33,547 bases of DNA from a virus. The stretch covers positions 1 to 33,547 of the IMG/VR virus record IMGVR_UViG_3300027784_000525. One strand, given 5' to 3'. The notes under the pieces are model-generated. The model worked only from the letters and a program-made list of their open reading frames with translations, was not told the origin of the DNA and did not search any database. Each line of letters begins with the position of its first letter. Position 1 is the stretch's first letter. Position numbers and translations under genes: made by a program. Shown here in pieces: positions 21,087-26,030 of the stretch.

Positions 21087-21098
21087 AACGGCATAAAA

Positions 21099-21116
21099 TA
21101 ACGGACTTGTCCGTTA
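21099..21116. promoter_or_regulatory. 18-bp perfect palindrome
   Basis: TAACGGAC-TT-GTCCGTTA, 13 bases after the holin-like gene. The 8-bp arms around TT fit a dimeric repressor operator better than a terminator, since no T tract follows. No second copy was noticed in the window. Confidence 0.4.
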
Positions 21117-21164
21117 AAATAAAGTTTGGCCTCCCTTCCTGTAACACACTTCCCTTCTCCTGTG

Positions 21165-21195
21165 GCTGTGCAGCAATGCTGCACAGCTTTTTTTT
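21165..21195 (+). terminator. Strong Rho-independent terminator of the late operon
   Basis: GCTGTGCAGC (21165-21174), loop AAT, GCTGCACAGC (21178-21187), then eight T residues. A 10-bp perfect GC-rich stem plus T8 is a textbook terminator. It separates late genes from the hammerhead module. Confidence 0.95.
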
Positions 21196-21220
21196 GTGAA
21201 AAAACATAAAAAACTCAAAA

Positions 21221-21237
21221 GAATTTAAAATAAATTC
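21221..21237. repeat. AT-rich inverted repeat
   Basis: GAATTTA-AAA-TAAATTC, in the AT-rich stretch after the terminator. It could be a regulator site or a melting element. The stretch 21196-21345 holds no gene. Confidence 0.35.
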
Positions 21238-21345
21238 AGACTTTTTGCTGGCAGTAGATGGTAAATGCCTTAACCACGGGCTTTTTCGGCCTCAAAAAGT
21301 TGCAAGTGGATGTCGGGAAAATCGGGTGAAATAAGGGTAAAACGC

Positions 21346-21374
21346 TTTACAAAGGGTCTGATGCATGGTATTAT
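21346..21374 (+). promoter_or_regulatory. Near-consensus extended -10 promoter of the ncRNA/hammerhead module
   Basis: TTTACA at 21346-21351 (5 of 6), a 17-base spacer, and TATTAT at 21369-21374 (5 of 6) preceded by TGG (21366-21368), an extended -10 element. Transcription should start near 21381. Confidence 0.8.
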
Positions 21375-21380
21375 ATAGTT

Positions 21381-21737
21381 GCAAGAGGGAAAGGGAAAAC
21401 AGCAAGACCGAACCTTGAAAACAGAATAGCAGCTGCAAGCCGGGAAACCTTAAGGGCCGGGCACAGCCAAAAGAAAGAGGCTGACGGGAGCAGGAACCGC
21501 GAAACACTGGCAAGGTAAAACGAAGGGCAGCTGCAAGACTGGCGAAAGCCACGGGTGGCGCCGATATAACGCTGGGGAGCCGAGAGGCTTTAAAAGGATA
21601 ACACGGCGCAGGAGCTGCAAGAAGGAGCAGGCGAGGATGGCGGTGGATAGGTAAACAAGACCCCGAAGAAGGCGGCCATTGCAAGGCCGCTTAAGCGAAG
21701 CCGAAATAACCGGGCAGCGGAAACGCTGCCCGTTATA
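21381..21737 (+). ncRNA. Large structured non-coding RNA, ended by hammerhead cleavage
   Basis: No plus-strand ORF with a ribosome site lies between the promoter and 21806. Compact helices with loops typical of folded RNA are visible: CAGCC/GGCTG (21464-21483), TGGC-GAAA-GCCA (21540-21551), AGCC-GAGA-GGCT (21578-21589), and GCGGCC/GGCCGC around ATTGCAA (21672-21690). Stem III of the ribozyme is also capped by GAAA (21720-21723). The motif GCTGCAAG recurs at 21432, 21530 and 21614 (GTTGCAAG at 21378). The 3' end would be set by ribozyme cleavage after 21737. Size and style recall the ornate phage RNAs (GOLLD, ROOL), but I cannot match it to a known class. Confidence 0.7.
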
Positions 21738-21778
21738 CGCTGCAGACTGACCGCTGCGGTGCTGATGAGGCAGGTTAA
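21691..21778 (+). ncRNA. Hammerhead ribozyme A (type II)
   Basis: Core elements in type II order: GCC (21700-21702), GAAA (21703-21706), stem III (TAAC...GGGCAGCG, GAAA loop, CGCTGCCC-GTTA, one bulged C) to 21735, U21736 pairing with A21706, and A21737 as the cleavage nucleotide. Stem I is CGCTGCAG (21738-21745) with CTGCGGTG (21754-21761), eight pairs of which two are wobbles. CTGATGA (21762-21768) and GGC (21769-21771) close stem II with GCC. TTAA at 21691 and 21775 could extend stem II. Every catalytic-core base is present. It sits between the ncRNA and the ribosome site of the amidoligase gene. Confidence 0.93.
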
Positions 21779-21805
21779 AAAAACTTTTAAAGGAGCGTTT
21801 AAAAG

Positions 21806-22636
21806 ATGAAAAAGGAACAGGTTAACGGATTTAACACGGAGCGGACTTTTGGAGTAGAGATTGAGTTTTTAGGACACGCGAACGCAGTGGCCGCAAAGTG
21901 CCGGGCAATGGGCATTGATTGCAGAGTTGAAAACTATAACCACGAAAACCGCGAATGGTGGAAAATAGTTACTGACGCAAGTGTTAACGGAGCCGGAGAA
22001 GGGCTGGAGATTGTGAGCCCGATATTGCACGGCCGCGAAGGGCTGGAAGCAGTTAAAACAGTTTGTGCAGCGTTGGAAGCAGCAGGCGCGACAGTAAATG
22101 TAACATGCGGCCTGCACGTGCATCACGGAGCAGAGGACTTTAACGTTAACAGTTTTAAAAACATTACTTTACTTTATACCCGATACGAAAAAACGATTGA
22201 CAGCCTGATGCCGAAAAGCCGGCGCGGCAGTAATAACACTTACTGCGCAAGTTTGTTTGACTTGCAGCACGCGACCTTTAGCAGCGCGCAGCGCTTTATG
22301 GAATGGATTTACAATGCACGCGATACCGACCAGTTGCTTGACTTTTTTAGCAGGCGCTTTTTAAAGCTGAACCTGCGCGCTTACCGGGCGCACTCGACAG
22401 TAGAGTTTAGGCAGCACAGCGGAACGACAGAAGCCGCGAAAGTTGTTAACTGGATTTTGTTAACGCAAGCAATGGTTAACAAAGCGACAGAGCGCACGGT
22501 GCTGAACCCGGCGAACGTTGACGACAGCTGGAAAAGCTTTAAAAAAGCAGTGGCCTTGACGGGCTACCGCGGAGCGACAGAAGAACTGCAGGCGGTGCAG
22601 CGGTTTTATGGCAAGCGCCGGAAGCAGTTAGCATAA
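21806..22636 (+). CDS. Amidoligase-family enzyme
   Basis: 276 residues behind AAAGGAGC. Motifs follow the glutamine-synthetase-like amidoligase family: FGVEIEF near the N-terminus (metal-binding acidic residues), WKIVTDASVNG, GLEIVSPIL, CGLHVHHG (histidines of the active site), MPKSRRGSNNTYC, and HSTVEFRQHSGTT with N-W-I following. Such enzymes are predicted to form amide or peptide bonds using ATP, for example adding glutamate or other amines to proteins or peptides. The gene lies between hammerheads A and B and contains no GATC, unlike most of the phage. A gamma-glutamylcyclotransferase gene 3 kb downstream is a natural functional partner. Confidence 0.88.
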   Translation: MKKEQVNGFNTERTFGVEIEFLGHANAVAAKCRAMGIDCRVENYNHENREWWKIVTDASVNGAGEGLEIVSPILHGREGLEAVKTVCAALEAAGATVNVTCGLHVHHGAEDFNVNSFKNITLLYTRYEKTIDSLMPKSRRGSNNTYCASLFDLQHATFSSAQRFMEWIYNARDTDQLLDFFSRRFLKLNLRAYRAHSTVEFRQHSGTTEAAKVVNWILLTQAMVNKATERTVLNPANVDDSWKSFKKAVALTGYRGATEELQAVQRFYGKRRKQLA

Positions 22637-22638
22637 CA

Positions 22639-22707
22639 GCCGAAACCGGGCGGAGCAGCAGCGGCCTGCCCGGTATGCAAAGGGTGCCGCCTTTGCACTG
22701 ATGAGGC
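22639..22707 (+). ncRNA. Hammerhead ribozyme B (type II)
   Basis: It starts two bases after the amidoligase stop. GCC (22639-22641) and GAAA (22642-22645) lead into stem III CCGGGC/GCCCGG (22646-22651 with 22668-22673), then U22674 and A22675, with cleavage after A22675. Stem I is TGCAAAGG (22676-22683) with CCTTTGCA (22690-22697), eight Watson-Crick pairs. CTGATGA lies at 22698-22704 and GGC at 22705-22707, closing stem II with GCC. The next ribosome site (CGGGAGG) lies about 25 bases downstream, so a cleaved mRNA keeps its translation signal. Confidence 0.95.
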
Positions 22708-22738
22708 AGGCAGCAAAAAAAAACGGGAGGCGTTAAAT

Positions 22739-23532: not shown

Positions 23533-23766
23533 ATGATTAAAATTACATTAGAAACTGGCAAAACATACGAGGCTGAAACTTACGAAAGGCTTATAACAGT
23601 GCTGGCGCGAACCAGTTATTTACAGGAAAGCAAGTTTGACTATATGGCGAACGTGGCGAAGCGCTGCAATATATGGAACGGCGCTGAAATTGAATACCAT
23701 AACGCCGAAAGCTTTATTAAGGAGTTGCAGCGCGTGGGCGTGGTGCAGGAGCTATGGGAAGAATAA
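23533..23766 (+). CDS. Hypothetical early protein
   Basis: 77 residues with CAGGAGG ahead. It begins with a beta hairpin (IKITLETGKTYEAETYE) and ends in a short helical region (YHNAESFIKELQRVGVVQEL). No family is recognised. Its stop codon (23764-23766) touches the first pairing base of hammerhead C, so the 3' end of this mRNA would be the ribozyme product. Confidence 0.75.
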   Translation: MIKITLETGKTYEAETYERLITVLARTSYLQESKFDYMANVAKRCNIWNGAEIEYHNAESFIKELQRVGVVQELWEE

Positions 23767-23827
23767 GCTGAAACCGGGCCGAGTGCCCGGTATGCTGGGA
23801 ACTGGGCGAACCAGCACTGATGAAGCT
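23766..23827 (+). ncRNA. Hammerhead ribozyme C (type II)
   Basis: AGCT (23766-23769) pairs with AGCT (23824-23827) as stem II. GAAA (23770-23773) leads to stem III CCGGGC, loop CGAGT, GCCCGG (23774-23790), then U23791 and A23792; cleavage is after A23792. Stem I is TGCTGG (23793-23798) with CCAGCA (23811-23816) around a 12-base loop. CTGATGA lies at 23817-23823. Stem sequences differ from copies A and B, but the core is identical, so the fold is kept by covariation. It directly follows a stop codon and lies ahead of the AAAGGAGG of the next gene. Confidence 0.95.
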
Positions 23828-23858
23828 GCCCGTTGTATAAAACAAAGGAGGCAATAAT

Positions 23859-25516: not shown

Positions 25517-25532
25517 AGGGAGCGTGCAGAAA

Positions 25533-26030
25533 ATGAAAACTATGTTTTATTTTGGTTATGGCAGCAATATTAATTACAAGCAGATGAAGCAGCGGTGCCC
25601 GAACGCGGAGGCTGTGGGCGTGGCAAAACTGCGCGGACACAGGTTGATCTTCCGTGGCGTGGCGGACGTGGTGCCGCACAGGAACGGCGGCGCTGTTATG
25701 GGCGTGCTTTGGAAAATAACTCCGCGCTGCTTAAAGGCGCTCGACCTCTACGAAGGTTATCCGCGCTTATACGGGCGGCGGCTTTGCAGCGTGGCAGTGG
25801 AGGAAGATGGCACACTGCGCGAGGCGCTTATATATTACATGAAAACGGGCGATCTGGCGGTGCCGCACAGAGAATACTGGCAGGCCATTATGGAAGGTTA
25901 CGAGGATTTTAACATGATACCACGGCGCGACATGCTGGAGCCGAATTATGGGCTGGGCAATGCGCGGATCAATTATGACACGGAAGGTTATTATGCAAGG
26001 CTGAACCAGCGACAGATCGATTATGATTAA
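25533..26030 (+). CDS. Gamma-glutamylcyclotransferase-like (AIG2/GGCT fold)
   Basis: 165 residues; ATG 25533 is preferred to GTG 25524, which is too close to AAGGGAG. FYFGYGSNINYKQMKQRCP is the YGSN substrate-binding loop with the typical following helix. FRGVADVVPHRNGGAVMGVL gives the central barrel strands. LDLYEGYPRLYGRR contains the catalytic glutamate. The family releases 5-oxoproline from gamma-glutamyl amides. Together with the amidoligase it suggests a phage system that makes and removes gamma-glutamyl or similar amide bonds. That link is inferred from known genomic pairings of the two families. Confidence 0.88.
   Translation: MKTMFYFGYGSNINYKQMKQRCPNAEAVGVAKLRGHRLIFRGVADVVPHRNGGAVMGVLWKITPRCLKALDLYEGYPRLYGRRLCSVAVEEDGTLREALIYYMKTGDLAVPHREYWQAIMEGYEDFNMIPRRDMLEPNYGLGNARINYDTEGYYARLNQRQIDYD

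Follow-up and report, generated by a model that had tools for sequence, protein, structure and literature searches.

A hammerhead ribozyme probably separates a structured noncoding RNA from an amidoligase message in a phage operon

A type II hammerhead ribozyme, A, stands between a conserved, structured noncoding RNA and an amidoligase gene in the 33.5-kb virus record IMGVR_UViG_3300027784_000525 (IMG/VR; the window, analyzed over its full 33,547 nt), where it probably cuts the upstream RNA and the first protein gene of the operon apart. The reading favored here, and judged likely on the sequence evidence, is that a phage noncoding RNA has its 3′ end trimmed by A, which thereby releases the amidoligase mRNA, and that A together with a second ribozyme, B, excises a 938-nt message. 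A further proposal is that the upstream RNA represents a new class of structured phage RNA of ~355 nt that has a promoter and an antitermination leader to itself and whose hammerhead-made 3′ end is also the border at which the adjoining mRNA begins; the chances for and against this proposal appear evenly balanced. The new part is the ncRNA-ribozyme-mRNA arrangement, and its unusual aspects are an unclassified conserved RNA and the strict placement of ribozymes between transcript units.

Layout of the operon

The operon runs on the + strand downstream of 21805, and the region between the promoter-like site and 21805 holds no convincing gene. Much of the evidence comes from comparison with a related phage contig (L004), whose amidoligase is 77% identical and which carries ribozyme A at the same place. 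The features are as follows.

21164-21195, + strand: intrinsic-terminator-like hairpin (21164-21188; 11 pairs, 7 of them G-C) followed by a T run, closing the upstream gene block
21346-21374, + strand: sigma-70-like promoter TTTACA-17-TATTAT with TG before the second hexamer (10 of 12 matches); start expected near 21381
21381-21737 (start approximate), + strand: structured noncoding RNA of ~355 nt, the predicted 5′ product of ribozyme A, based on L004 conservation, fold z-score, and consensus helices
21402-21429, + strand: boxA-like leader element AGCAAGACCGAACCTTGAAAACAGAATAG, invariant in L004
21672-21690, + strand: hairpin GCGGCC-AUUGCAA-GGCCGC (the tenth helix), ending 9 nt before stem II of ribozyme A and kept in L004
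21699-21779, + strand: type II hammerhead ribozyme A, predicted cleavage between A21737 and C21738, based on core, stems, pseudoknot, and conservation
21738-22675, + strand: predicted amidoligase message of 938 nt with a hairpin at each end, bounded by the predicted cuts of ribozymes A and B
21806-22636, + strand: amidoligase gene (PF12224, E = 1.5e-42), with AAAGGAG 5′ of the ATG
22638-22719, + strand: type II hammerhead ribozyme B, predicted cleavage after 22675 (RF02276, 41.3 bits), directly after the amidoligase stop codon
22739-23176, + strand: DUF6011 protein gene (E = 2.6e-12)
23766-23834, + strand: type II hammerhead ribozyme C, predicted cleavage after 23792 (RF02276, 32.0 bits), overlapping the stop codon of a 77-aa ORF by one base

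Architecture and conservation of ribozyme A

The type II core is complete, and every position given for it in the original prediction is right: GAAA at 21703-21706, U21736 (U16.1), A21737 (the H17 cleavage-site base), and CUGAUGA at 21762-21768. The 8-bp stem I claimed earlier is formed by 21738-21745 with 21754-21761, two of its eight pairs being G-U, and the GAAA tetraloop said to cap stem III is found at 21720-21723. The lower part of stem III pairs AUAAC (21706-21710) with GUUAU (21732-21736) over five pairs and ends at the bulged C21711, beyond which GGGCAGCG and CGCUGCCC form eight further pairs, while stem II consists of three pairs between GCC (21700-21702) and GGC (21769-21771). Loops close stems I and III and stem II is open, which is the type II layout. 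A 5-bp pseudoknot between UGACC in loop I (21748-21752) and GGUUA in the 3′ tail (21773-21777) is also possible and is absent from the original prediction. Such a contact is usual, though not universal, in type II hammerheads, and the construct that Perreault et al. tested needed it to cleave fast (PMC3088659). In the predicted fold from the leader to 21800, stems I and III attain mean pairing probabilities of 0.80-0.999, and stem II attains 0.14, a weak value because the pseudoknot cannot be modelled in the fold; inclusion of 100 nt more of the mRNA lowers the lower part of stem III to 0.43.

Neither phage has lost a core base. When the ribozyme helices of the window and L004 were matched by hand, stem I differed by one compensatory and three one-sided changes, lower stem III by four compensatory changes, and the pseudoknot by one compensatory and one one-sided change, and no pair in these three elements is broken between the two. 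In L004, CUGAUGA is separated from stem II by one additional U, which counts against the favored reading; the same extra U is present in ribozymes of three further contigs of the amidoligase clade (L010-L012) that score 52-54 bits in Rfam. As CUGAUGA-U-GGC, the extra base recurs at L004 3954-3964, L010 3888-3898, and L012 1097-1107.

The upstream noncoding RNA

The ~355 nt from the promoter to the cleavage site are without a conserved ORF, and coding on either strand was rejected on account of gaps of 1, 2, 4, and 6 nt that break the frame in the alignment of the window with L004. Nucleotide identity between the two phages is 81.6% over 21384-21700 versus 73.6% for the amidoligase gene. The native sequence folds more stably than its shuffles, with a z-score of -3.95 when stem III of the ribozyme is included and a modest -2.41 for the noncoding core without the ribozyme, the latter counting against the favored reading. 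A nine-helix consensus keeps 98.8% of its cells paired, compared with 27-40% when the partners are slid, and includes three compensatory pairs; the covariation, drawn from two sequences only, is equalled by 61 of 500 shuffles and does not clearly beat shuffling, which also weighs against the favored reading. The tenth helix was misaligned in that count; a manual alignment gives it four compensatory changes. The structured RNA that had been claimed upstream of the ribozyme is thus conserved in L004, folded, noncoding, and equipped with its own promoter-like site, and the amidoligase mRNA claimed downstream of the junction likewise holds, with a PF12224 gene that has its own ribosome-binding site.

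A search of 4227 Rfam families, extended to E ≤ 10 over 21087-21810, returned no relevant match for the upstream RNA, which leaves a group I intron, RNase P, GOLLD, ROOL, and other known noncoding RNA classes unsupported. Further copies of the leader RNA were sought (i) by blastn against phages and plasmids, (ii) with four DNA patterns in viral contigs, and (iii) with a covariance model applied to 70 sources and 39 records, and each search returned L004 only; an amidoligase scan of genome contigs found no relative. Four genome-contig stretches that fit the noncoding RNA pattern miss the covariance model and were taken as chance matches. On these sequence comparisons, the RNA that ribozyme A is predicted to trim appears to be new and is known from two contigs.

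The promoter-like site recurs in L004 at 3531 with the same spacing. In the leader, AGCAAGACCGAACCTTGAAAACAGAATAG is similar to boxA, the antitermination signal found in Bacillus rRNA leaders, and elements like AGCAAGACCGAACCTTGAAAACAGAATAG immediately follow promoters in two other phages, Bacillus phage Slash and Mycobacterium phage Blinn1. Close behind the promoter, CCUUGAAAACAGAAUA is the boxA-like sequence and the putative point in common with the boxA antitermination leaders of rRNA operons and phages; unlike in rRNA operons, a unique folded RNA follows here instead of rRNA. A putative boxA-type signal would suit a long untranslated RNA.

The same boxA-like element and promoter, right before an operon, also fit an antitermination leader, and the upstream RNA may simply be a long structured 5′ untranslated leader, antiterminating or regulatory, that A trims off and that has no role of its own once released. 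Trimming would then give the amidoligase mRNA a protected 5′-OH end or a chosen expression level. L010-L013, which keep the same amidoligase gene without the leader RNA and without ribozyme A, agree with this account, as does the coincidence of a halovirus hammerhead near a start codon with an mRNA 5′ end (PMC3088659). It is a possible, if somewhat doubtful, explanation: the leader is better conserved than the gene that follows it and runs more than 250 nt beyond what the boxA-like element needs, and a plain leader could do without a fixed 3′ end.

A natural allosteric ribozyme is a different proposition, in which the upstream RNA would sense a signal or protein and alter the rate at which A cuts, and hence amidoligase expression. 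Immediately before the ribozyme comes the long, conserved, folded RNA, its last hairpin stopping just short of stem II, and regulated phage hammerheads have been proposed (PMC3088659). Such a switch is nevertheless unlikely, given that stems I and III of A are predicted to form with or without the leader, that no competing fold is seen, and that no known riboswitch in Rfam matches upstream of A.

Strength of the hammerhead assignment

The gathering cut-off of the Rfam type II model RF02276 is 37 bits, a curation threshold and not a biological feature, and among the three ribozymes only B exceeds it. The covariance check suggested along with the original prediction came out mixed: RF02276 matches A at 21.2 bits in restricted scans, which is under 37 and weighs against the favored reading, and misses it in the scan of the whole window. 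The model accommodates the long stem III of A poorly, and likewise the G-U pairs in its stem I. As RF02276 at E ≤ 10 also matches in 10 of 14 control genomes, 21.2 bits alone is unconvincing for A.

A generic type II descriptor, run on one strand of 234 Mb of Markov-resampled window sequence, gave 34 matches, equivalent to about 0.01 per window for both strands. By the same descriptor, the window itself holds three type II hammerheads (A, B, and C), all on the + strand and in one operon. The hammerhead call therefore stands above chance and is upheld by the full core, the pseudoknot, two stronger neighbors, and conservation in L004; judged by its sequence, A is a new member of a known ribozyme kind and would probably cleave. 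Clustered hammerheads in other bacteria and phages self-cleave in vitro, and, to be counted against the favored reading, 4 of 18 consensus-fitting hammerheads tested did not cleave (PMC3088659). A decayed or nonfunctional hammerhead-like fold, conserved as leader structure with no cutting, would fit the low score of A and the extra U next to stem II in L004, and is very improbable in view of core bases intact in both phages, stems and a pseudoknot that change in step, the chance expectation, and the same extra U in the high-scoring L010-L012 ribozymes.

Placement of the hammerheads

Hammerheads were counted in the window and in the amidoligase clade L004 and L010-L014 (the first hammerhead of L014 was found by eye and has a weak stem II). 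The 13 other than A all follow a stop codon, with 2-6 nt from the stop to GAAA in 12 and 15 nt in one; examples are the intergenic hammerheads at L004 4846-4917 and 6541-6621. For most of the 13, the next ribosome-binding site and start codon are close downstream. Only ribozyme A and its L004 counterpart have no ORF ending upstream, and noncoding RNA takes its place. Hammerheads therefore appear to mark borders between RNA units here, and A marks the predicted border between a noncoding RNA and a gene. Their closeness to stop codons suggests ribosome-delayed cutting: speculatively, the GAAA strand would be covered while a ribosome terminates, and cleavage could have to wait until the ribosome departs.

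Among 50 virus records with an amidoligase gene, only five, those closest to this one, carry a hammerhead over the Rfam cut-off. A general link between amidoligases and hammerheads is therefore rejected in favor of one that belongs to the phage lineage. A literature search, with subscription journals mostly outside its scope, found no paper linking hammerhead ribozymes with amidoligase.

Proposed mechanism

The observed sequence, pairing, conservation, and gene order are the grounds from which we infer promoter use, cleavage, and the action of the released leader as an RNA of its own. One operon-length transcript would start about 7 nt past the promoter, and its first ~355 nt would be the folded noncoding RNA with its boxA-like leader. 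Ribozyme A would then fold through stems I, II, and III and the loop I-tail pseudoknot and cut between A21737 and C21738. Hammerhead cleavage leaves a 2′,3′-cyclic phosphate and a 5′-OH, and the same ends would be expected after A21737. The cut would fix the 3′ end of the noncoding RNA as the stem III hairpin bearing the cyclic phosphate, and would free an amidoligase message with a 5′-OH end and the stem I hairpin first. Ribozyme B would cut second to yield the single-gene 938-nt RNA, and ribozyme C would cut once more downstream.

If the proposal of a new RNA class is true, the ribozymes of the operon would mature a functional RNA besides separating genes. Two related phages keep one ribozyme at the border of noncoding RNA and gene and the others between a stop and the next start, a placement that makes ribozyme-cut phage transcripts directly testable by mapping 5′-OH and 2′,3′-cyclic phosphate ends. 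The leader RNA, if stable, would add one more class to the few large phage RNAs known.

Relation to known systems

Like the type II hammerheads of RF02276 (Perreault et al. 2011, PMC3088659), ribozyme A has every core base, a stem II that is open where stems I and III are closed, and the pseudoknot, and in both cases several copies occur between phage genes. Unlike these, it has a gene on one side only, with a long conserved noncoding RNA on the other, has a long GAAA-capped stem III, and scores under the cut-off. The cutting of phage transcripts into operon- or single-gene mRNAs by hammerheads has been proposed, and a hammerhead ahead of a halovirus helicase gene is consistent with an mRNA 5′ end that has been mapped (PMC3088659). 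HHphage of haloviruses HF1/HF2 is a viral hammerhead that, like ribozyme A, heads an operon and precedes a start codon by a few bases; an mRNA 5′ end maps near its cleavage site (PMC3088659). It has a variant core and belongs to an archaeal virus, whereas the ribozyme described here has a canonical core and an extra noncoding RNA upstream.

The large RNAs GOLLD and ROOL (PMC12286853) are also phage-encoded, structured, and noncoding. They measure ~660 to over 800 nt and are often near tRNA islands; in contrast, the leader RNA is ~355 nt, has no Rfam match, and carries a ribozyme at its 3′ end, and no tRNA was found in the window. The main text of PMC12286853 does not mention hammerheads.

Genome setting and further observations

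The gene order in the operon is amidoligase, DUF6011 protein, small genes, a gamma-glutamyl cyclotransferase (PF06094), and DNA-replication-type genes. The amidoligase and the gamma-glutamyl cyclotransferase (25524-26030) occur in one cluster, as they do in Bacillus and Geobacillus phages (L109; L112). Within the phage collection, the primase has its top full-length match in a Thermoanaerobacterium phage (43.7%), and a clostridial-type host is therefore likely. Upstream of the promoter, AAATGCCTTAACCACGGGCTTTT is identical in the window (21262-21285) and L004 (3447-3470), and its 16-nt core TTAACCACGGGCTTTT has one occurrence in each stretch searched; the site is possibly an operator or another control site.

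The boxA-like stretch GACCGAACCTTGAAAAC (21401-21429 in the window) is common to otherwise unrelated phages, in which it follows promoter-like sites (L006 1501-1525; L007 883-913), and is about 90% identical to Bacillus and Mycobacterium phages over 25-31 nt. A faecal phage (L008) has 20 nt in common with this stretch, but inside an apparent coding frame, and was left uncounted. Positions 1500-1900 of L008, for which Rfam gave no relevant match, form a structured-looking stretch that follows a broken-off transposase-like frame and ends in a terminator-like hairpin; it is possibly an intron or another RNA.
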